NCBI GenBank assembly: GCA_944323675.1
Contig: CALUTK010000010.1
Span: forward strand, 1 to 43,751
DNA from: Candidatus Gastranaerophilales bacterium
GTDB lineage: Bacteria > Cyanobacteriota > Vampirovibrionia > Gastranaerophilales > Gastranaerophilaceae
Reading direction: 5' to 3'
Length of the DNA: 43,751 nt
Shown here: piece by piece, positions 5,197 to 40,034 of the stretch
Layout of the letters: the number at the start of each line of letters is the position of its first letter
Position numbering within the stretch: the first letter of the stretch is position 1
Translations under genes and position numbers: made by a program
The notes under the pieces: generated by a model
What the model was told of the DNA's origin: nothing
Database searches by the model: none
The model's input: the letters and a program-made list of their open reading frames with translations, nothing else

Positions 5197-5238
5197 CTTT
5201 AGTATGATAAGAAAGATTATTTTTGCAGAATGTATTTG

Positions 5239-5763
5239 TTATAAAGAACAGCTTATAATAGCGTTTACGCCCCAGTTTTTGCCTGAATTGTCTTTTGTAT
5301 CCTGCAGGTTGTAACGCTGTACTTCCAGCGAAAGCGATGTTTTCGGCGAGAGTTTCTGTGTAACGCCGGCAAATACTCCGGCACTGTTTGTCCACTTTTG
5401 GGTTTTGTAATTGTATTTTCCGACATAATGCGGGTTTGCATAAATACTTGTATTTTTGCCTAACGGGATATTGACACTCAGAGGGGAATATCTTATTTGT
5501 GTCGCAGCACTTTTACTGCCAACAGTGTTTCTCACACGCAGGTTCTGGTTAAATGTGCCGTTTTTGTCGTAATTTAATGCTCCTTTAAAATCCAGAACGG
5601 CCATTGCATCTTTATTAAAATCTGTTCCGATGCCTAAAAATGCAGCAGCTGAGCCATTTCGGGATTTCGCTTTTTCTTCAACCCCGCCTATTGTCAAATT
5701 AGATCCGTCTAAATTCTGATATGAGCTTAATGATGTGCTTCCATCTAATCCTGGTACCGGCAT
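5239..5763 (-). CDS. Hypothetical protein, beta-barrel-like sequence, no signal peptide
   Basis: A 174-residue protein that I do not recognise. It is rich in Gly, Asn, Ser and Thr. The sequence alternates polar and hydrophobic residues in short strands, with turns such as YNYKTQKW, and the C-terminus reads NWGVNAIISCSL, which together resemble a small outer-membrane-type barrel. No N-terminal signal peptide is visible: it starts MPVPGLDGSTSLSSYQ. An F-K-G triplet (LDFKGALN) occurs near residue 59. The start is well supported by AGGAGG 7 nt upstream of the ATG. It lies head to tail behind the following membrane protein on the same strand with a 26-bp gap, so the two may be cotranscribed. Confidence 0.6.
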   Translation of the reverse strand: MPVPGLDGSTSLSSYQNLDGSNLTIGGVEEKAKSRNGSAAAFLGIGTDFNKDAMAVLDFKGALNYDKNGTFNQNLRVRNTVGSKSAATQIRYSPLSVNIPLGKNTSIYANPHYVGKYNYKTQKWTNSAGVFAGVTQKLSPKTSLSLEVQRYNLQDTKDNSGKNWGVNAIISCSL

Positions 5764-5789
5764 AATTTTCCTCCTGTAAAAATCCCCTG

Positions 5790-6338
5790 TTATTTATATA
5801 AAGTTTTTTTAGTTTCGGAAATTGCCAGTTTGTTAACCATTTTTTCAAAATATTTTTGTGTATCAGGTGTATTATATATTATTTGAACACTTTTTGATAT
5901 TGCTGCTTTTACAAGTTCAAAAGCAGAAAGAGGAATAAAACTGTAAAATTCAATGGATTGCCCGTCTGCGGTTATATTTATTTGAATTTCAGGGAACCTC
6001 CGCATTTCAGGACAAATCCCGCCATCAAAGTTTATTGCAATAGTTTTTATATCCTGCCAGTTCAGCGGAGTCGAGACTCTGTTAATATCAACAAGAGTTA
6101 ATTTTTTATCATCCAGTTCCAGAAATCTGTAAGGGGATTTTTTTCTTGAATATAGCAGAACAAGACTTCTTATGACCAGTACAATTATAGTAATAGCCGC
6201 AGCTATTATTAATCCGGTTAATCTTTTTCCCTGCGGGCAAATTACAAAAATTAAACAGACGAAGTATGCAAGCATAGCAGCCGTAAATATTTTGTGTTTC
6301 GGGTGTTCCTGCAAGTATAGATTTAAAACTTTTTTCAT
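5790..6338 (-). CDS. Two-helix membrane protein with a PH-like cytosolic domain
   Basis: A 182-residue protein, MKKVLNLYLQEHPKHK..., with two closely spaced hydrophobic helices (about residues 18-35 and 40-63) and then a soluble domain of about 115 residues. The soluble part begins RFLELDDKKLTLVD and continues with strand-rich sequence, which resembles the PH-like/YdbS-type domain of small bacterial membrane proteins. That assignment is by general appearance only. I use the ATG at 6338 because GGAGA is 4-5 nt upstream. The longer frame from 6353 would start at TTG and would place this Shine-Dalgarno inside the gene. Function unknown. Confidence 0.6.
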   Translation of the reverse strand: MKKVLNLYLQEHPKHKIFTAAMLAYFVCLIFVICPQGKRLTGLIIAAAITIIVLVIRSLVLLYSRKKSPYRFLELDDKKLTLVDINRVSTPLNWQDIKTIAINFDGGICPEMRRFPEIQINITADGQSIEFYSFIPLSAFELVKAAISKSVQIIYNTPDTQKYFEKMVNKLAISETKKTLYK

Positions 6339-6394: not shown

Positions 6395-8278
6395 TTATTC
6401 AGCCAGAAGTTTTTCCGCAAGTTCGGATTCTGTTCTGCCGTTGAGCGTTTTGTTAACTTTCTGGAGTTTTTGTGCGATAAGTTCCATATTATCAGTCCAT
6501 ACGAAGTTGTCTTTAACGTATTTTTCAGCTTTGTCAAAATCTCCGTCAATTTGAATTCTCACGATTTCAGCAAGCATTTCTTTTGCAATAGGAACTACTT
6601 TATCGATATTTACGTGGATTTTTCCATCAGGTGTAATCTCATACGCGCCGCGTTCCGCAAAATATTTATTTTGCATAACAGTTCGTACTCTGTGTGCCTG
6701 AGAAAGCGTCGGTTTTGATTTCAGGAAATTGTCCGTAATCGTTGTTACAATAATTTGTTTACGCTGTTCTGGAGTATACATACCGAGTTCCGTCAATAAA
6801 TCCACAAATGCAAGTGAGCCCATATCGGCTTTGTTTTCCTCAATGATGTTTCTGTATTTGCCAAGTGACTCGCCGGCTTTTTTAGGCCCGAGGGAGTGAG
6901 CGTTTTCGTGGCCGATTGTGAACCAGTGGTCAGCCTCATCAAGATAATACTTCTGCTGATCTTTATCAAGGATTGCGTCTAACCTTTCCTGTAATTTGGC
7001 TTTGTCGCTGATAAATCTTATCTGTCTATGGTAAACATTACGTCTGCCTCCGCCTATTTTCAATGATAATTTATCATCGTTCGGAAGATTTTCGGCTAAA
7101 GTTATGCCACCTCTGTATTCGCCGACGTTTCCGGTAACTGCGACAAGGTCAACGTCCACCATTGTCTGCTTTGCATCGCCTTTTGTCGAAATATTCTGTT
7201 CGTATTCGTCCTTATAAGGCATATTATCAGCCAGGGTCGGAAGGTATTTTTTTATCGCCATCAGTGCATCAGTGCCTTTTTTATTAACAATTCCGACTCT
7301 GCCGCCGAGAAAATCCTTCGGGATAGGAGAAATCCCGCGTTCTTCAAGCATTTTGCTGAGTTCTTTATTCTCAACAATAGTACCTGTCATTTCATCTTCG
7401 TAGTTTTCTCTCGTAATGGTGAATTCCAGCGGGGTATCCTGTAATGTTGCCCACTGTTTATCCGCATAAGCATCAAGCATCGGATTTGCCATTCTGAGTG
7501 CCTGTGCCTGTAATACCAGATATTTTGTAAATTCTTTGTTTGTGGAAGTTTCTGCTGCTTTATCAAGTTCATCAGCCATTTGGGCAAAATCTTCCTGAAA
7601 CTTATCTATATAGTCAATTCCGACAAGTTCATCCCCGTTGCGCTCAACAACTGAACGCTGGGTGAGGATTTTTTTGACTTCTTCGTCTTTACCTTCATTC
7701 AGCATTTTAGTTAAGATTTTATGAAACTCTTCTTTTGTCAAATCTTCAGGATAGACACCTTTCCCCGGAAGATCAGTATGACCTTTGGCAAGATGAATTT
7801 TTTCAGACATTGAATCTATTGCGTTTATCCCTTTTTGTGCATCAAAGAGAACCTTTGTCATTTCTGCATTTTTGTTTCCTTTTGCAACTTCTTTTTCCAG
7901 ATATTCTTTGAATTCTAAGTTGTGCGGGTTATCAAGCTGCATATTAATTTTTTCTAATATATATGCGGCTTTCACAAGGTGTTTGAGCGCTTTCTTGTCG
8001 CCTTCAGCAAGCGCCAGATACTCAGGCGCATCTGCTTTTAACATCTTTTTTGTTATTAAATAATCTTTATTTGTTCTCTTTTCAAGTTCTTCTTTTGAAA
8101 GGTTAAGTTCAAAATTTCCTTTGAACGCTATATTATTTCCTGCCATTTTATCAAGCTCCTTCATTAAAACTTCGCTTCTGTCGGAATGTTGTGCCGTTAA
8201 AAGCTTAGTATCTTCTTTTTTAGATGTAATATAATTCTGATTTACTATCTTACTGGTTGTAATTTTCTGTATTTCCAT
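6395..8278 (-). CDS. M49-like (dipeptidyl peptidase III-type) zinc metallopeptidase
   Basis: A 627-residue protein without signal peptide or membrane helix. The motif HENAH (H457, H461) followed by SLGPKK, then IIEENKAD about 20 residues later (E480/E481, D485), matches the two zinc-site motifs of M49-like peptidases (HExxxH or HExxH with LGP, then EE-x-x-AD). An upstream stretch GVYPEDLTKEEF (about 175-186) is also typical of that group. The N-terminus is Asn/Lys/Gln-rich and carries NNIAFKGN at 48-55, the F-x-G motif shared by other proteins here. The substrate is probably short peptides, but this is inferred from the family. No Shine-Dalgarno precedes the ATG, and an extended -10 box ends 6 nt upstream, so the mRNA is probably leaderless. 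Confidence 0.7.
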   Translation of the reverse strand: MEIQKITTSKIVNQNYITSKKEDTKLLTAQHSDRSEVLMKELDKMAGNNIAFKGNFELNLSKEELEKRTNKDYLITKKMLKADAPEYLALAEGDKKALKHLVKAAYILEKINMQLDNPHNLEFKEYLEKEVAKGNKNAEMTKVLFDAQKGINAIDSMSEKIHLAKGHTDLPGKGVYPEDLTKEEFHKILTKMLNEGKDEEVKKILTQRSVVERNGDELVGIDYIDKFQEDFAQMADELDKAAETSTNKEFTKYLVLQAQALRMANPMLDAYADKQWATLQDTPLEFTITRENYEDEMTGTIVENKELSKMLEERGISPIPKDFLGGRVGIVNKKGTDALMAIKKYLPTLADNMPYKDEYEQNISTKGDAKQTMVDVDLVAVTGNVGEYRGGITLAENLPNDDKLSLKIGGGRRNVYHRQIRFISDKAKLQERLDAILDKDQQKYYLDEADHWFTIGHENAHSLGPKKAGESLGKYRNIIEENKADMGSLAFVDLLTELGMYTPEQRKQIIVTTITDNFLKSKPTLSQAHRVRTVMQNKYFAERGAYEITPDGKIHVNIDKVVPIAKEMLAEIVRIQIDGDFDKAEKYVKDNFVWTDNMELIAQKLQKVNKTLNGRTESELAEKLLAE

Positions 8279-14070: not shown

Positions 14071-16194
14071 TTATTTGTTTAGAAATCCTGCCATTGTAGG
14101 TTTTTTATGAATAGAATTTGTTATTGCTGCAGCCTGTGGTGCAGTCTGAATAGTTGTAACATTTTGAGGTTTTGTATCAGGCTGAGCTGCTGGCGTTTGT
14201 ACTGCAGATTTTACCTCCGGCTGTTGGGAGGCTGTTTTTTCTGCATTCTGTTGCGCCTGAAGACTTTTCTCTTTTGCTCTGTCATTTTTGGTCATTCTGT
14301 CACAGAACCTTGCAAGCCATATCATAAATGACGGTACAAGAACCAGTGTAGATAAGAAACCGAATGAGCTGTTCATTGTTTTTGCGTAATTGATATATTT
14401 GTTGCCTTTAACATTTCTAAAAATACTGTAAATATTTTCAAGAGATTTATTGTCTTTAGAAACATTTTTGAATGCTGTTTTAATTTCGTCAATAGTTGCA
14501 TCCTTCAACGGTTTGCCGACAATTGCTTCAGCGTTGGCTTTGACATTTTTATCAAGACGAAGCATTTTCTTAATATTCCCGCCGCTGTTTTCAACGAATT
14601 CAAAGAATCCGTTTATGCCGCCAGGGTATTTGTCAATGTTTGTGTATTTGGAGATGATTTCTTCACTTGATAATACGTTGATGCCGGAACCTGCAGTAAA
14701 GTAGTTTTTAGCCTTATGCAGGAAGGATTTTGCGTGATCTGCCGGTTTTGTATTCAAAGCAAGCCCTGAGAGTTTTGAGAAAGCAACCGAACAAGCTCTT
14801 GAAAGTGCTTTTGCGGCAAAGAGGATTGCGACGAAACTTGTAATATCACGTACAAGAATTTCTTTTTTATCGTATTTATCCTGACCGTTCAGGTATCTTG
14901 GCGGCAGGCAGAATCCGAATAACAGGGTCAGCATCGCCGTAACTGACATTGAAGGCCCGTCAAAGTCGAATTTATCTGCTAAATTTTTCAGCCAGCTTGT
15001 ATTCATAACCGTGTCGCCTGTCTTAGCCATAACTTTCTGTATTCCTGCACCCTGGAATGAAACATTTTTGCCGCCGGCTTTTTTATCATCAACTTTATCT
15101 TCTGCTTTTTGTGTTGTAGAAGCCGGTGCCGGTTCTTCGTTCTGGTCTTTCAGTGCCGGGTTGCCTTTTAAACCGAGGTTGTAAAGTTTCGGAATAATCG
15201 TGTAGAATCCGACAACCGCAAAGAACATAGAAAACAGAGTTGTGAATCTTGATCCGATACGTCTTGAAGTATGAGCTTTCAAAAACTCTGCAACATCTGT
15301 TGTCGCGTCTTTTGCCAGTTGTTTATTAACTGATTCAATTGCATCGTTTGAATAGTTCTTCATAGAACCAAGAAGTTTTTTGAATGATTCTGATACAGGC
15401 TCCTGACGTCCTTCTATCTTGAGAGATGCTACCATTTCGTTGATTGAAGGCGAAAGATTTTGTTTTCTCAGCATCATAAAGTCATCTGTAAGGTGCTGGG
15501 TTAAATCTTCTGCAGAGCCGTCGACTTTTATATCCAGTAATTTTTTGAAGAAACCTTTTGATTTTGCGTTTTCAATTTCTATTACTCTGTCTGTGAAATT
15601 TTTAGAATATTTTGAAATTTCTTCATCGCTCAGAGTCTGTGTAACTTTATCTCCGTCTTTCAGAAGGGTGGATTCTTTTAATACGTTATTAAATATTTTT
15701 TCATAGAATTCTTTCTTTGTCTTAGCGACATCGGAAAGGGTGTTACGGTTTTCAACCGCATACTTTTCAAAGTTTTCGCCAAGCCCCTTAATCATATCAA
15801 TGGAAACATTGTTTGCTGTGCCTGAGTATTTAGTTATGAAATGGAGCATAATAGCAGGGATAATGAATGCGCTCGGGCCGCTTAAGATTTCGCGGATACC
15901 TTCTTTTCTGGCGAATTCCCAGTTTAAAGGCCCGTGTTTTTTACCGTTTTCATCTGTTTTTCTGCCGCGGTTTAAACCTTCTGTTATACGCGGAGCAACC
16001 ATGCCGAGTCCGTCCTGAGCAATAAATGATGCGGCAAAACCGCCTCTTTCAATTGCATCCATAAGCATGACAACAGGATTCCCGCCGGTAAATGACTGAT
16101 TATATTTGTTATGTTGATTTTGTTTCTTGTTGTTCTGCTGCTGATTATTCAGACGAGTGTTTTCACTAACCGTATTGATTGCTTTTACTACCAT
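14071..16194 (-). CDS. Lineage-specific multi-pass membrane protein with two F-x-G motifs
   Basis: A 707-residue protein that I cannot assign to a named family. The first 33 residues are Asn/Gln/Lys-rich (NNQQQNNKKQNQHNK) and end in NQSFTGGNP. A second similar motif, KNVSFQGAG, sits near residue 386. Likely membrane helices lie at about 110-124, 317-336, 415-430, 450-468 and 630-650, separated by long charged helical regions (130-300, 500-620). The C-terminal 60 residues are Gln/Ala/Pro-rich and disordered. The segment FIAQDGLGMVAPRITEGLNRGRK resembles the ID/MMD-x-x-x-x-P-x-TKKY region of the 201/207-residue pair at 19.4-20.6 kb. A weak AGGG lies only about 3 nt from the ATG. It is probably a conserved protein of the lineage. 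Confidence 0.65.
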   Translation of the reverse strand: MVVKAINTVSENTRLNNQQQNNKKQNQHNKYNQSFTGGNPVVMLMDAIERGGFAASFIAQDGLGMVAPRITEGLNRGRKTDENGKKHGPLNWEFARKEGIREILSGPSAFIIPAIMLHFITKYSGTANNVSIDMIKGLGENFEKYAVENRNTLSDVAKTKKEFYEKIFNNVLKESTLLKDGDKVTQTLSDEEISKYSKNFTDRVIEIENAKSKGFFKKLLDIKVDGSAEDLTQHLTDDFMMLRKQNLSPSINEMVASLKIEGRQEPVSESFKKLLGSMKNYSNDAIESVNKQLAKDATTDVAEFLKAHTSRRIGSRFTTLFSMFFAVVGFYTIIPKLYNLGLKGNPALKDQNEEPAPASTTQKAEDKVDDKKAGGKNVSFQGAGIQKVMAKTGDTVMNTSWLKNLADKFDFDGPSMSVTAMLTLLFGFCLPPRYLNGQDKYDKKEILVRDITSFVAILFAAKALSRACSVAFSKLSGLALNTKPADHAKSFLHKAKNYFTAGSGINVLSSEEIISKYTNIDKYPGGINGFFEFVENSGGNIKKMLRLDKNVKANAEAIVGKPLKDATIDEIKTAFKNVSKDNKSLENIYSIFRNVKGNKYINYAKTMNSSFGFLSTLVLVPSFMIWLARFCDRMTKNDRAKEKSLQAQQNAEKTASQQPEVKSAVQTPAAQPDTKPQNVTTIQTAPQAAAITNSIHKKPTMAGFLNK

Positions 16195-33944: not shown

Positions 33945-33965
33945 ACAGCCGACGGATACGGCTGT
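33945..33965 (-). terminator. Hairpin after the GH13 gene
   Basis: ACAGCCG (33945-33951) and CGGCTGT (33959-33965) form a perfect 7-bp stem with a 7-nt loop, 29 bp past the GH13 stop. On the minus strand it is followed by GTTTCCTT, a weak T tract. Confidence 0.45.
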
Positions 33966-33994: not shown

Positions 33995-35743
33995 TTAGTG
34001 TTGTTTATAAACGTTTCTTGTGTAATTTTCTATATACGGGGTATCAATTTCAAACACATGGACTCTTGCCGGCCCCAGATCGACCCTTAATTCACCGTCA
34101 ACTGCCTGGAAGATACTTTCTTTTCCGTATGAAGGGAGAAGGTTATCAAGCTTCTGGGAAGCTTTTAATGTCGGAATTTTTACCTTACAGGCGACTCCTC
34201 GGTTTACGTTTTTGTTTGCAAGAACCAGCAGAGTTCTTCCGTTATAGTGCCTTGCATAAGCAATTATCTGGTCGTTTTTATCATCCTCTTTTTCAAGTTC
34301 AATAAATGTGCCGTCAGGGCCTACTATATCCGCATAATCTCTACGAAGCTGGTTTGCGTCCTGCAGGAATGTTCTGATGGATTCATCATCTCCGCCCGGT
34401 CTTCTGGAGGCGTTAAAGATATCCAATTTGCCTCTGTGAACTGTCATTTCGTGATTGTCGGTCTGTGTTTCCGGATTATATTTATCTTCATAAGGATAAA
34501 GGTAATAATCCCCGTTTTGGAAACCGTCAACCTGATACATATTAAGCATAGGCAATGTAGCCTGAATTCCAAGAGTCATTTTGCAGTAATCAGCGCCGCC
34601 GTGGAACATAGGGGATATATCATCATGGGTTGCAAATGACCCGATTAGAGATTTTCCGCGGTCTACCCTGTATGACATATCTAGCTGTTCTTTTACATAA
34701 TCCATAAGTGTTTGCGCATTTGCCCATTCATGGAAGATGTGATATTGCCCGTAAATAGCGTCAAACCCTGCCCGCAGTGAATCTTCCGGTCTGTCGTAAG
34801 GCATATTTGCCTGAGGTGAAGCATCTTCATAGGTATATGTTTCCGCAAGCCATGCAAATTCTGGATCCCTCATTCTTGAATATGGAATTAAGATATCCCA
34901 GAATTCAACCGGTTTCGCTCTTGCAACATCGGCTCTTATTCCGTCAACCCCTAAATCAATACAAAAATCTATAAACTGTTTATGTAGTTCAAGGAGTTTC
35001 GGGTTAAGAGTACGTTTACCTTCATCTTCCCACGGCTGGAACATTCTGATATCATTCCACCCTTGAGGAGTTTTGGCTAATCCGTCCGGTTCCACTGCCA
35101 TCCATTCCGGATGATTTAAAAACATCTCGTAAGAAGCACAGCTCGGTAAATCCATCATTACCTTAATATCACGTTTGTGGCATTCATCAATAAATTTTTT
35201 AAACTGGTCTTTTACTGTTCCAGGAGCGGAAGGATCGTAAAGCTTAGGGTCGATTTCAATAAGGTCTTTCGGCGAATAAACAGAACCTGCTGTTCCCATA
35301 GCTTTTAATTTACCGGGAGTACTTATCGGAAGAAGGTGCAGGGTGTTAAATCCGTCCTCTTTTACCTCATCAAGTCTGTCTATTGCATTTATAAACGTTC
35401 CGCCCTGTTCTTTGCCGTCAATATAGCCGTTTTTATTTGTGTCTTTAGCATTGAATGTACGCGGTATAATTGCTAAGATATTAGCCTGTTCGTGTCTGAA
35501 CATACTGCGGAGATTATTTCTGTAGATAATCTTTTTCGGAGGCTGCTGCTCTTGAACAGAAGATGTTTTTGTAACTGCAGGTTTATTTATTGCGGCAAGA
35601 CTTTGAAGATAATTTGAAATCATGCCGGAACGATCAGATTGCCCCGGATAGGTAACAGCAGCCTGAGGTTGAGGGGCATTTTGCTTTCCGGTGCCCTGTT
35701 GTCTATTTATATGCTGAGCTAATAAGTTGGTATTCTGTATCAT
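33995..35743 (-). CDS. Cytosolic GH13 (alpha-amylase family) enzyme with an EF-hand loop
   Basis: A 582-residue TIM-barrel glycosidase or transglycosylase. Catalytic residues are all present: nucleophile D272 in GIRADVAR, acid/base E301 in WLAETY, and the motif IV H373-D374 in FATHDD. Motif I reads VMMDLPSCASYEMF; its Asp (D198) is kept but the usual Asn-His is absent, as in GlgE-type maltosyltransferases. ARAKPVEFWDILI after the nucleophile also recalls GlgE. Before the barrel, residues 101-112 (DTNKNGYIDGKE) match the 12-residue EF-hand calcium loop exactly. The first 70 residues are Gln/Asn/Pro-rich, with no signal peptide. Likely substrates are alpha-glucans, intracellular. It is last in an operon, 6 bp behind the large membrane protein. 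Exact activity unknown. Confidence 0.82.
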   Translation of the reverse strand: MIQNTNLLAQHINRQQGTGKQNAPQPQAAVTYPGQSDRSGMISNYLQSLAAINKPAVTKTSSVQEQQPPKKIIYRNNLRSMFRHEQANILAIIPRTFNAKDTNKNGYIDGKEQGGTFINAIDRLDEVKEDGFNTLHLLPISTPGKLKAMGTAGSVYSPKDLIEIDPKLYDPSAPGTVKDQFKKFIDECHKRDIKVMMDLPSCASYEMFLNHPEWMAVEPDGLAKTPQGWNDIRMFQPWEDEGKRTLNPKLLELHKQFIDFCIDLGVDGIRADVARAKPVEFWDILIPYSRMRDPEFAWLAETYTYEDASPQANMPYDRPEDSLRAGFDAIYGQYHIFHEWANAQTLMDYVKEQLDMSYRVDRGKSLIGSFATHDDISPMFHGGADYCKMTLGIQATLPMLNMYQVDGFQNGDYYLYPYEDKYNPETQTDNHEMTVHRGKLDIFNASRRPGGDDESIRTFLQDANQLRRDYADIVGPDGTFIELEKEDDKNDQIIAYARHYNGRTLLVLANKNVNRGVACKVKIPTLKASQKLDNLLPSYGKESIFQAVDGELRVDLGPARVHVFEIDTPYIENYTRNVYKQH

Positions 35744-35749
35744 TTTATC

Positions 35750-38344
35750 TTAACCCTTTTTACTGTTTTCCGGAAGTTTCATCCGACCGAAGAAGAATTG
35801 TGCCAGCAATGTAACTCCGAGTAATACACCGCCGATTGTTCCGAATGTTTTTGTCCAAGTATGCGAATTATATTTTCTCATACCGATTTTTGAGAACAAG
35901 TCATCCGGCGACATACCCAGAAGCTGGAATTTCCTTACAGAAGTTGCTTCTGACTTACCGTTGTCAACAAAGTGATCCAATTTACAGAAATATTTTGTAT
36001 CTCCGATATCTTTATATACAGCATCTCTGTAAGCCCCGACGCCTGTAATATTTGTATCTCTGAATACGGCTTCCGTTTCAGGATGCAGAGGTTCTTTATA
36101 GAGAGTCTTCATCACTGTTTTAAAGAAGTCCCAATCCCCCGGAATATCAACATTTTCAATATTTTTATTTTTGCCGAGATATTTATTTATAACCTTTCCG
36201 TCTTTAACTTCCACATCACTTAAGTCATCCATATTAGGATATGGATTTCTCAGCATATAGAATTTTGTTTCAAAATCAACCATATGCCTATCGACTGCCA
36301 GATGCTTACAAAATTCAATTATTTCTTCTTTAATTTCACGAGGTCTGTCTTTTAAGGTTTCGATTGAATTTGTTGCAACTTTGCGGTAGAAGTTCATACT
36401 GTTCAAAAGCCCTTCAAAAGTGCTCTTGATACCGAGGAAGCGTTCTTCTACAAAGCTTTTTTGAAGTTGTTTGAGAGATTGGTCTGTAAAATGTTCCTGA
36501 TTCCCGTTTATTATTGCCTTTGGCCCTGTCAAATGCTGGGACATTTTATCAAAATTTACAATTTTGCCGTTTTCAAGTTTAAGGTTTTGGAATGTCTCAG
36601 AGGCTGTATCATAAGTACTGTCAACTGCTTCAATGTAGTTGCTCGGGATAGTATCTGCTTTAACTGTATCTTTTAGTGTGTTAATCTTTTCGCACATGGC
36701 TTTCAGAACACGGTTATATTCCGCACCGTCAGAGGCGATTTTTTCCATCTTTTCACGGAGCAGAGCAGTCATTAATTCTCTGTCCATACGGGTCTTTTTG
36801 ATTTCTTCAGGTGTAAACTTGAAGATTTCCATCAGGTTTTCAGCTACATCATTCCAGTAATTCGCAAGTCCTGTTTCCGGAGCAGACGCAAATTTAATAT
36901 ATGCAAACTTATCAAGAACGTCAGTTTTTGCTTTTAAGTCTGTCATAACTTTTGCCGCACCTTTTACAATCTGCTGGGCTTCAGCATTGAATCTTGCAGC
37001 AGAAGTTGACGCCAGAACTTTTGAAATTGGAGCTTCATCAAATTTTGCATCAACCAGCCTGTTTAAAATAATAGGTTTTTCAATCTCATCAGTAATCGGA
37101 CGAACAGGATTTGAAGCATTATATTCATTAATGTTTCTTCTGACAATCATGCTGATATCATCGAGCAAATCCTGAGCCTGCAGTTTAGTAAAGTCTTTTC
37201 CTGCATACGCTTCACTTTCAAACAAGTTGGTTAACTGTTCAGGTTTTGGAGCAACGGCATCAATCATTTCCTTATCAAGAGGACTCTGTTTCAGAGCTTT
37301 TTTAGCATTTTCGAACATTGACTGCGCAGAGGTTGAAGAAAGCGTATATTTTTCAACCCCGTCCGGTCTCAAAAGTTTTTTCAAATCTTCTTCCATCGCA
37401 TCCGTAGCAAGTCCGTCAAAACCGTCTGTCAAATTTTCAGAAAGAGTTTTTATCATATCATCAGTTAAAGGCTGATCCTTATGAAGTTCAATAAAGCTTT
37501 CGATGTTTTTAATAATCTTATCGGATTTCATTGCCTCTGTGGAGTCAGAGAAGTTATTTAAAAGCTTATCTGCTTTTTTCATCTGCATATTATTAAGATA
37601 TTTATTTACATAGGGTTCGGAAACGCTGCAAATTAAAGCACTCATAACCGGTGTTGCAAAACCTGCAGTCAGCATCCAGAGGGTATTATTTTGAACCGCG
37701 ATTTTTCTCATTTTATCCTGAATAAAGTCGCGGCGGTTGTTCATATCTCTAGGAACGCCTAATCTATCGCCGATTTTATTTATTTCTTTATCGGAATACA
37801 AGTCCCAAGGAATAAACTGCGGATCAAGGTAGAATTTTTTCTTTCTGCCGAAGCTGTCTTCATACTGCTGGGAAATATTTACGCCGTGGATTAACTGTGC
37901 CGGCCACTGAATGGCGACTTTCGGCCAGATACTCATTGAGGCAAGGAATGACGCAAGCCCGATAAATTCCATTGCTTTTGTTTTCGGAGTCTGCTTAATT
38001 GTTGCGAGGAAACCTGCAAGACTTAACCCGCCTACTGCAAGCCCCATATCATTTAATTTCCCGAGCTGGTGGTCATTTGCTTTTCCTGTGTAACCGTCTT
38101 TCAGAGCCTTTAAGTCGTATGCGAAATCTTTTACAAGAACAGCCGGAAGGTCTGTTATTCTGTTTTTTACAAGATGCCCCTGCCCCGGAAGAGGTTTTAT
38201 AAATGTTCTGTTTGCAAGTTCTCTATTTATATCAAAATTCGGTTTGACTTTTTTGACATTGACGATTTCCACATCCTGAGATTTTGTCTGAGGCTGCGGT
38301 TTATTATTATAGTTATGTATGTAAGATGAAATCATATTTACCAT
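35750..38344 (-). CDS. Large membrane-anchored helical protein, paralogue of its neighbour
   Basis: An 864-residue protein of no named family. The N-terminus is disordered (MVNMISSYIHNYNNKPQPQT). Two hydrophobic segments lie at about 98-116 and 125-142, another at 231-251, and one at the C-terminus (about 836-855). The 560 residues between are charged and helical, so it probably forms a long cytosolic or periplasmic domain between membrane anchors. The block IQWPAQLIHGVNISQQY...FIPWDLYS (about 145-184) aligns with QPVKWMTGVDTEQPY...FIRWDLMY in the upstream 345-residue protein. It lies 1 bp behind that gene and 6 bp before the GH13 gene, so the three form one operon. Confidence 0.65.
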   Translation of the reverse strand: MVNMISSYIHNYNNKPQPQTKSQDVEIVNVKKVKPNFDINRELANRTFIKPLPGQGHLVKNRITDLPAVLVKDFAYDLKALKDGYTGKANDHQLGKLNDMGLAVGGLSLAGFLATIKQTPKTKAMEFIGLASFLASMSIWPKVAIQWPAQLIHGVNISQQYEDSFGRKKKFYLDPQFIPWDLYSDKEINKIGDRLGVPRDMNNRRDFIQDKMRKIAVQNNTLWMLTAGFATPVMSALICSVSEPYVNKYLNNMQMKKADKLLNNFSDSTEAMKSDKIIKNIESFIELHKDQPLTDDMIKTLSENLTDGFDGLATDAMEEDLKKLLRPDGVEKYTLSSTSAQSMFENAKKALKQSPLDKEMIDAVAPKPEQLTNLFESEAYAGKDFTKLQAQDLLDDISMIVRRNINEYNASNPVRPITDEIEKPIILNRLVDAKFDEAPISKVLASTSAARFNAEAQQIVKGAAKVMTDLKAKTDVLDKFAYIKFASAPETGLANYWNDVAENLMEIFKFTPEEIKKTRMDRELMTALLREKMEKIASDGAEYNRVLKAMCEKINTLKDTVKADTIPSNYIEAVDSTYDTASETFQNLKLENGKIVNFDKMSQHLTGPKAIINGNQEHFTDQSLKQLQKSFVEERFLGIKSTFEGLLNSMNFYRKVATNSIETLKDRPREIKEEIIEFCKHLAVDRHMVDFETKFYMLRNPYPNMDDLSDVEVKDGKVINKYLGKNKNIENVDIPGDWDFFKTVMKTLYKEPLHPETEAVFRDTNITGVGAYRDAVYKDIGDTKYFCKLDHFVDNGKSEATSVRKFQLLGMSPDDLFSKIGMRKYNSHTWTKTFGTIGGVLLGVTLLAQFFFGRMKLPENSKKG

Positions 38345-38345
38345 A

Positions 38346-39383
38346 TTAGTTCACCACATACTTTCTTGACTTTTCGATTATATCCGCCGAATCCAATTTT
38401 GACGGCTTATGAGAACTTGTCATTGTATTAGCCACACCGATTACGGTACCGAGAACTGCTGCTCCGAGGAGAGTTTTTCCTGCGTAGCGGCTCATTCCGT
38501 TTTTCCCGCCCTTATAAAAATCTTTTATACTTTCGCCTAATGTTTTAACGAATGTTGTAACCGTTTTTGCGAATTGTTTGCCATGCCAGAATTTCCATGT
38601 TCCGACCTCAAAGAATTTATCCCAGCATTCCTGAATTGCAATACCTACTGCTGTTGCAGCCCATAAATAGGATACTATATTTTTTGCGGTTGCGGATTTA
38701 ATTACGATTTCTCTGATGCGGGGTTTTGCTTCCTGGTCAGAATCGTTTAAATTAGTTCCGAGTCCCAATTTTTTTGCAATTTTATCGTAAGGTTCATTAC
38801 GTGTTTTAGCGTTATCCTCAGGCCCGTACATCAAATCCCAGCGGATAAATTCAGAACTTTCCGGAACTTTATGATATTCAATACTTGTAATATCCGTATC
38901 GTTAATATTTTCAGGAAGTTCATACTGAACCTTGGCATAAGGCTGTTCTGTATCGACACCGGTCATCCATTTTACCGGCTGGGTAATCAACATTTTGGAA
39001 GCGCTTTTGGCAAGCGCGTAAAAAACAACTCCCAACCCGAGACGTCTGCCGAGAGATGAAGCATTCTTTTTATCAAACGGCATAAATGTTTTATTTGAAT
39101 TAAATACAGCAATGAGCATGGCGCTCCCGACTAAATACGGAACCATTCCCATTGTCAAAAATTCATAAAAGTTTGCGTTTTTGCTTCCGTTCAAACCTTT
39201 TGCCGGATAAACAGTCAGGGCATTAGTTAATTTATCAACCCCGATTCTCATTCGGTTTGAAAAAGTGTTTTTCAGGACGGTATCGTGGGTATAAGGAAGT
39301 TTATTTTCCTCGCTTTGATCGTCTTTTTGATTATTAGCAGAAAAATTTAAGCTGTTATGTCGATTAGTAATCGGTAAAATCAT
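38346..39383 (-). CDS. Membrane protein, first gene of the GH13 operon
   Basis: A 345-residue protein with N-terminal MILPITNRHNSLNFSANNQ, a weak version of the Asn-rich/F-x-A motif. Hydrophobic segments lie at about 82-100, 120-135, 245-260 and 318-332. It shares the W-x-x-GV-x-x-x-Q-x-Y and F-I-x-W-D-L-x-x blocks and the following K-x-L-G region with the 864-residue protein, so the two are paralogues. I use the ATG at 39383 because GGAG is 6 nt upstream; a longer frame from 39425 has no such site. Function unknown. Confidence 0.65.
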   Translation of the reverse strand: MILPITNRHNSLNFSANNQKDDQSEENKLPYTHDTVLKNTFSNRMRIGVDKLTNALTVYPAKGLNGSKNANFYEFLTMGMVPYLVGSAMLIAVFNSNKTFMPFDKKNASSLGRRLGLGVVFYALAKSASKMLITQPVKWMTGVDTEQPYAKVQYELPENINDTDITSIEYHKVPESSEFIRWDLMYGPEDNAKTRNEPYDKIAKKLGLGTNLNDSDQEAKPRIREIVIKSATAKNIVSYLWAATAVGIAIQECWDKFFEVGTWKFWHGKQFAKTVTTFVKTLGESIKDFYKGGKNGMSRYAGKTLLGAAVLGTVIGVANTMTSSHKPSKLDSADIIEKSRKYVVN

Positions 39384-39420: not shown

Positions 39421-39426
39421 GTCAAA
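39421..39426 (-). promoter_or_regulatory. Candidate -35 box of the GH13 operon
   Basis: A perfect TTGACA on the minus strand, with only a weak -10 candidate (CTTATT/TTATTG) 17-18 nt downstream. If used, the leader would be very short, though it still includes the GGAG. Confidence 0.35.
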
Positions 39427-39580: not shown

Positions 39581-39707
39581 TATACCGCAGTTTACACCAG
39601 ATGCACAAAAGTGTCATGCTGAATTTATTTCAGCATCTCTATGCTGTTAGACCCTGAAACAAGTTCAGGGTGACATTTCTGCGTTTTTTTGTGTAAACTG
39701 CGATATA
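39581..39707 (-). mobile_element. MITE-like element, copy B (127 bp), inverted relative to copy A
   Basis: Ends TATACCGCAGTTTACAC (39581-39597) and GTGTAAACTGCGATATA (39691-39707) match the copy A ends at 10.5 kb with one change (C for T). The interior matches copy A in reverse orientation nearly base for base (AACAGCATAGAGATGCTGAA and its flanks), except that B lacks one hairpin unit of about 20 bases. No ORF. Bounded by AT-rich sequence, with no clear target duplication beyond TA. Confidence 0.75.
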
Positions 39708-40034
39708 AGTCGTAAGTTTTATTCACAATAAATAATCCCCCCGTCGTTCCGGAAGCTTAGAAAAACTAATTAAGACGGAAGGCGAAATTTAGTTTTTCAC
39801 GCTATGCGAGATCGCAAAATCGTGGAATGCGACGACTTTGCGATCCCGGGTCAGAGCCCGGGATGACGTAACATTTCTCCTTTGTATCTTTTCCATTCTC
39901 TCCCGCAAGGGGTGAGGGTGGTAAAGAGTCATTGCGAGCGATAGCGAAGCAATCCAGTCTTTTAAAATGTGAATAGTGAGTGGTGAATTGACCTACAATA
40001 ATTATAAAAACTTTTAAACAATTCAAACGTTCAA
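39708..40034. repeat. Noncoding stretch with palindromes and repeat fragments
   Basis: No gene supported. It contains the perfect hairpin CCCGGG-TCAGAG-CCCGGG near 39846-39863, a (CTC)TCCCGCAAGGGGTGAGGG piece near 39899, and CATTGCGAGCGATAGCGAAG near 39930, the inverse of a segment near 26.5 kb. The open frames crossing it are built from these repeats and look non-coding. Confidence 0.5.

Follow-up and report, generated by a model that had tools for sequence, protein, structure and literature searches.

A three-gene unit conserved in Gastranaerophilales: a GH13 enzyme encoded with two paralogous membrane proteins and its possible role in alpha-glucan processing

Related systems

Gastranaerophilales, which are related to cyanobacteria, are common gut bacteria that for the most part have not been cultured. 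The locus described here encodes two membrane proteins (A and B) and a GH13 enzyme (C) in one contiguous unit. At the level of the enzyme, the nearest described relatives are the GH13 alpha-amylases and their kin; the best profile matches of C among PDB entries were 4gkl (alpha-amylase, 93 bits), 1gju (maltodextrin glycosyltransferase, 86 bits) and 3dhu (alpha-amylase). These proteins and C have in common the catalytic TIM-barrel region and its Asp/Glu/Asp residues. In contrast to them, C carries the sequence DLPSCAS in region I, a docking-like N-terminal tail and fixed partners, A and B, and its similarity to their profiles is only about 70–93 bits over parts of the barrel.

GlgE, the maltose-1-phosphate maltosyltransferase, is likewise a cytosolic GH13 enzyme, and the KPV-x-FW that follows the nucleophile in C is presumably common to both. 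GlgE is only a distant profile match of C (58 bits, below 4gkl and 1gju), so GlgE-type activity on maltose-1-phosphate is not specifically indicated. GlgE is not known to have membrane partners. In the heteromeric amino-acid transporters, a GH13-like SLC3 subunit is joined with an SLC7 membrane protein; the SLC3 ectodomain is extracellular, is not a glycosidase and has its own membrane helix. The likeness lies in the pairing of a GH13 fold with membrane proteins. Unlike SLC3, C keeps the catalytic residues and lacks a signal peptide, and A and B matched no such family in the searches described below.

Gastranaerophilales have been inferred to store glycogen or to ferment glycogen or starch (PMC4040986; PMC5877343), and the passages of these two papers on that subject make no mention of a membrane-associated GH13 unit. 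A full-text literature search that combined Melainabacteria or Gastranaerophilales with GH13, amylase, glycogen or starch returned no description of the A-B-C unit. GH13 as an enzyme type is known, and the A and B families and their fixed association with a GH13 enzyme are undescribed as far as searched.

Gene layout

The window, the whole stretch of 43,751 nucleotides that was analysed, belongs to a 1.81-Mb draft genome that is 95.5% complete. Three genes lie head to tail on its minus strand, as a first-pass annotation had described: those for protein A (38346..39383, 345 aa), protein B (35750..38344, 864 aa) and protein C (33995..35743, 582 aa). The ORFs are separated by 1 bp between A and B (38345) and by 6 bp between B and C (35744–35749). 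The longest listed ORF for A begins with a TTG at 39425; an ATG at 39383 opens the sequence MILPITNR..., which is kept in the five closest relatives, and protein A is therefore taken to be 345 aa long. Short palindromic repeats (CATCCCGGGCTCTGACCCGGGATCG; CACCCTGAACTTGTTTCAGGGTC) occur at 39600–39900 of the window, inside the 609-bp gap upstream of A. At the other end, an inverted repeat with a 7-bp stem (33945..33965, no strand assigned) begins 29 bp past the stop codon of C. It is a possible end of the transcript, and a weak candidate since eight such sites were found where 5.3 were expected.

Membrane proteins A and B

Proteins A and B are paralogues, as had been claimed. Profile-profile comparison of the two families (A, n = 40; B, n = 41) with hhalign gave a probability of 96.9 and an E value of 1.4e-10 over 190 columns, and an HMM of A retrieves B proteins down to E 1.6e-12. 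The alignment spans the first hydrophobic segments and the loop that holds the GV-x-x-x-Q-x-Y and W-D-L blocks. The blocks GV-x-x-x-Q-x-Y and F-I-x-W-D-L that had first drawn attention to the pair read GVDTEQPY and FIRWDL in A, and GVNISQQY and FIPWDL in B. Protein A also has an N-terminal segment LNFSA, and no further paralogues of A were found in the source genome.

The description of A and B as membrane proteins holds for one solid helix in each, with a 19-residue hydropathy of 1.86 in A and 1.82 in B. Three further segments in each protein, at 1.2–1.5, are only likely membrane segments, so that the number of hydrophobic helices in A lies between one, which is clear, and four. Between its third and last hydrophobic segments, protein B carries in addition some 575 residues (approximately 250–825) that evolve fast and are mostly helical; its last hydrophobic helix lies at 833–853. 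The invariant residues of B are clustered in its N-terminal core, with W830 and G853 near the end. If all four segments span the membrane, the positive charges suggest that the N-terminus lies inside and the large domain of B outside, a topology made uncertain by the weakness of several hydrophobic segments. The AlphaFold model of B, built with only six close sequences, had a mean pLDDT of 42.

Pfam searches with 38 A- and 39 B-family members gave scattered single-member matches and no consistent family. No match to A or B was found in NCBIfam or PADLOC, and A had no meaningful match among PDB sequences. The PDB profile matches of B, to designed helical proteins and coiled coils (E 0.001 or worse), were rejected as generic helix matches. 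In sequence and profile comparisons with these four collections, A and B match no family consistently, and no transporter or secretion family.

The GH13 enzyme and its exported paralogue

The assignment of C to GH13 stands. The protein matches Pfam PF00128 at 29.5 bits (cut-off 22) over residues 92–199 and PDB GH13 proteins at E 1e-25. The residues D198, R270, D272, E301, H373 and D374, which include the nucleophile Asp272, the acid/base Glu301 and the transition-state Asp374, are present in all 41 members of the family. In 125 columns, the residue of the window protein occurs in at least 95% of the 41 sequences; such a pattern is that of a working enzyme and not of a degenerate one. Region I reads DLPSCAS (198–204) in place of the usual DxxxNH, the Asp being kept and the Asn-His absent across the family. 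Region I variants exist inside GH13, so this sequence does not expel C from the family; the replacement does mean that the chemistry of C could differ from that of a standard amylase. The AlphaFold model of C reached a pLDDT of 35, with only six close sequences. PADLOC returned only a weak match of C, named for GlgB (E 3e-4), and a defence role was rejected.

No signal peptide is present in C, in agreement with the first-pass annotation. The Gln/Asn/Pro-rich tail that it reported is also present, and can now be placed at the N-terminus, in residues 1–73 (35525..35743, minus strand). Gln, Asn and Pro make up 33% of this tail, which is rich in these residues in 41 of 41 members (fraction 0.20–0.44). 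A second member of the C family, C', is encoded elsewhere in the source genome (C46:6190-7743) and is 42% identical to C. It begins with MKKFLVTAAVLFLVSGQGFA, by eye a clear signal peptide, followed directly by the segment equivalent to C from about residue 76. The tail of C thus occupies the place of the signal peptide of C', and the simplest reading of the two sequences is that C and C' may be the internal and exported versions of the same enzyme. Another exported GH13 protein, amylase-like and of 706 aa, was also seen. Near C', C46 encodes unannotated membrane-like proteins with Gln/Asn/Ser-rich N-terminal tails (L129:676-2163, 5198-6157).

Conservation across the order

The locus comparison covered 41 loci, namely the window and 40 stretches from other genomes, representing approximately 40 genera of families f1 and f3–f7; ORFs were called and iterated profile searches were then run across the whole set. 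The genes follow one another on the same strand in the order A-B-C in 40 of the 41 loci, in six families of Gastranaerophilales, and are thus neighbours in related genomes as well. Gene B adjoins C in every locus. In the single exception (L083), B and C lie together and no A was found up to the point where the contig stops. Spacing ranges mostly from overlaps of a few bases to +8 bp, with a few wider gaps of at most 48 bp; in a few cases a large overlap (−98 to −127) was called, probably through a wrongly assigned start codon.

Within the order, a query with C found a match in 141 of 146 genomes and a query with A in 139 of 146, and a query with B matched 48 of 59 relatives. No B was found in either of two genomes of family f2 of the same order, or in 136 other genomes of the phylum (five from another family of the class and 131 others); a single genome representing a further family of the class gave no match either. 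The most widespread of the other gene families reach only 14–17 of the 41 loci, so the conservation of A-B-C does not reflect synteny of the whole region. The A-B-C arrangement is conserved and, as far as searched, specific to the order; this conservation suggests that the three genes form a single functional unit.

A motif common to the N-termini of B and C

A short pattern, N[LM][LI]xxY[LI], is shared by the N-terminal end of B and the tail of C. The corresponding sites in the window are NMISSYI in B (residues 3–9; 38318..38338, minus strand) and GMISNYL in C (residues 40–46; 35606..35626, minus strand), a helix in the low-confidence model. In 22 of 41 B proteins the pattern, which was chosen after looking at the sequences, is present among the N-terminal 25 residues, against a mean of 0.7 and a maximum of 4 in shuffled sequences and a frequency of 1.2% in other ORFs. 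In 26 of 41 C proteins it falls within the N-terminal 90 residues, against a mean of 2.7 and a maximum of 10 in shuffled sequences and 8% in other ORFs. Both counts are far above chance. Motifs of B and C taken from one locus resemble each other more closely than those of shuffled pairs do (p 0.011, a value that ignores the kinship of the genomes), and in family f6 the motif is altered in both proteins, to SMIQSYV in B and DFVKSYA in C. The pattern is absent from most deeper-lineage loci and from A. These motifs favour a binding site that B and C would have in common. The motif and the position of the C tail, where C' has its signal peptide, support tethering of C beyond what co-transcription alone would suggest.

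Many other proteins of the lineage have an Asn/Gln/Ser-rich N-terminal tail that ends, immediately ahead of the folded region, in a short tag, [ILV][ST]F[KTSA]G[NGH]. The tag is found on duplicated glycogen-synthase-like transferases and giant GH13 proteins, and not on canonical GlgA or GH77; outside the glycogen-synthase-like and giant GH13 families its enrichment is weak (1.18 versus 0.40 per 1000 residues). Examples of tailed and tagged proteins are L167:5705-8893, L168:4622-7633, L169:5641-8406, L140:4342-7452, L128:2967-7268, L083:236-4165 and, in the window, 14071-16194 and 6395-8278. The first of these two window ORFs (14071-16194, minus strand) encodes a 707-aa membrane-like protein with an SFTGG tag, a Gln/Asn-rich tail and no credible Pfam match.

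Links to other alpha-glucan enzymes

The first-pass annotation had remarked that glycogen and sugar-transport genes were missing around the unit. For alpha-glucan genes this is correct for the window and does not hold across the order, where a giant GH13 protein, D, adjoins the operon in 10 of 41 loci. In nine of these, which belong to other lineages of the order, D lies on the same strand directly downstream of C; in one it is divergent next to A. D proteins are 1,103–1,384 aa long, some being cut by contig ends, and the two tested match PF00128 at E 1e-21 and 5e-25. The source genome has a relative of D (1433 aa, contig C8) that is convergent with an extracellular solute-binding-protein-like gene.

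A further link is provided by the C-terminal 130 residues of B (735–864; 35753..36142, minus strand), which resemble the membrane tail of giant glycogen-synthase-type glycosyltransferases of genus g7. These transferases terminate in a single hydrophobic helix. The B tail matches their C-terminal segment at E 6e-7 to 2e-5 (the next other ORF being at 0.53), and at E 2e-6 to 9e-5 in another search. The copy in the source genome is a 1062-aa tail-anchored glycogen-synthase-like glycosyltransferase on contig C45 (L167:5705-8893). Relatives of the g7 transferase were detected in only 35 of the 59 genomes searched, and it is therefore not an obligate partner of A-B-C.

Canonical GlgA and two GH77 proteins are also encoded in the source genome. 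Glycogen phosphorylase (PF00343) was not found there, and of the four GH13 genes detected in the draft, which is 95.5% complete, none can be recognized as a branching enzyme. Giant GH77-domain proteins of 1003 to 1558 aa occur in other families of the order, at L147 (G037:C280), L148 (G043:C82) and L153 (G039:C55); in G037 and G043, a branching-enzyme-like ORF adjoins the giant GH77-domain protein. The intact GH13 residues of C, the presence of D in 10 of 41 loci and the likeness of the B tail to glycogen-synthase-like transferases together support an alpha-glucan role for the unit.

Proposed mechanism and alternatives

The membrane-tethered alpha-glucan complex put forward in the first-pass annotation is partly supported: tethering by the motif of B and C and the tail of C, and the alpha-glucan role by the GH13 residues of C, D and the B tail. 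The complex itself, its substrate and its reaction are proposed. We tentatively prefer, at somewhat short of an even chance, the reading that C acts on alpha-glucan in the cytosol as a GH13 enzyme and is held at the membrane by a platform of A and B. The operon-like layout, its conservation across the order, the paralogy of A and B, the intact active site of C and the motif of B and C are shown; docking, topology, substrate and direction of reaction are what we infer. C would be a hydrolase or a transglycosylase whose disordered N-terminal tail brings it to the inside of the cytoplasmic membrane. A and B would form the membrane platform, on which the large variable domain of B would probably face outwards. 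The short helix N[LM][LI]xxY[LI], which lies near the N-terminus of B and within the tail of C, could occupy the same binding site, provided by A or by a partner common to both. The task of the unit would be to shorten or remodel alpha-glucan that is synthesized or taken up at the membrane, and its partners may be other lineage-specific enzymes, namely the giant GH13 protein D, the tail-anchored glycogen-synthase-like transferase and GH77.

Maltodextrin uptake often goes together with GH13 enzymes, and A and B might instead be a maltodextrin or oligosaccharide transporter or channel, with C processing the substrate in the cytosol or serving as a gate, as in heteromeric transporters. Two paralogous membrane proteins would fit such a permease, and the exported GH13 enzymes (C' and the 706-aa amylase-like protein) would supply oligosaccharides outside the cell. 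However, no member of either family matches transporter families in Pfam, the hydrophobic segments are few and weak for a permease, and the bulk of B is a rapidly changing helical domain, not a conserved translocation core. Nor does a conserved transporter gene adjoin the operon in the 41 loci, and we consider a transporter unlikely. The genomic surroundings in the source genus and part of f1, where the operon comes after an undecaprenyl-diphosphate phosphatase gene and has KdsC/KdsD-like genes nearby, would suit modification of an envelope glucan (capsule, LPS-linked or lipid-linked alpha-glucan) in place of storage glycogen. Those neighbours are found in only 14–17 of 41 loci and are absent in deeper families, and C has no export signal, which makes an envelope role distinctly improbable. 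UppP, KdsC and KdsD were themselves rejected as members of the unit, being present in a minority of loci.

It may also be that three co-transcribed pathway genes are functionally linked with no physical complex, the motif of B and C being an unrelated localization or stability signal. Many lineage proteins carry Asn/Gln-rich N-terminal tails with short motifs, so such tails need not mean mutual docking. The B/C motif, however, is seldom seen among other ORFs, of which 1.2% have it in their first 25 aa, and it co-varies between B and C; linkage of this looser kind seems improbable to us. The tethered enzyme on an A/B platform could be part of a wider arrangement, in which Gastranaerophilales would organize alpha-glucan metabolism on a dedicated membrane platform composed of an A/B scaffold, tethered GH13 enzymes (C and D) and a tail-anchored glycogen-synthase-like transferase, with short N-terminal peptide tags mediating the assembly; this extension is speculative and rather unlikely. 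It would be a bacterial membrane-bound alpha-glucan machine for which we know of no described counterpart.

Significance

The energy economy inferred for Gastranaerophilales depends on fermentation of sugars and of stored glucan. The A-B-C unit occurs in almost all members of the order and, by these searches, nowhere else in the phylum, and it includes two unannotated membrane protein families; it is thus a concrete handle on the special cell biology of these bacteria. If C does sit at the membrane with glucan synthases, this would be an unusual spatial organization of bacterial storage-polymer metabolism. The near-universal presence of A-B-C suggests that these bacteria process sugar polymers at the membrane.
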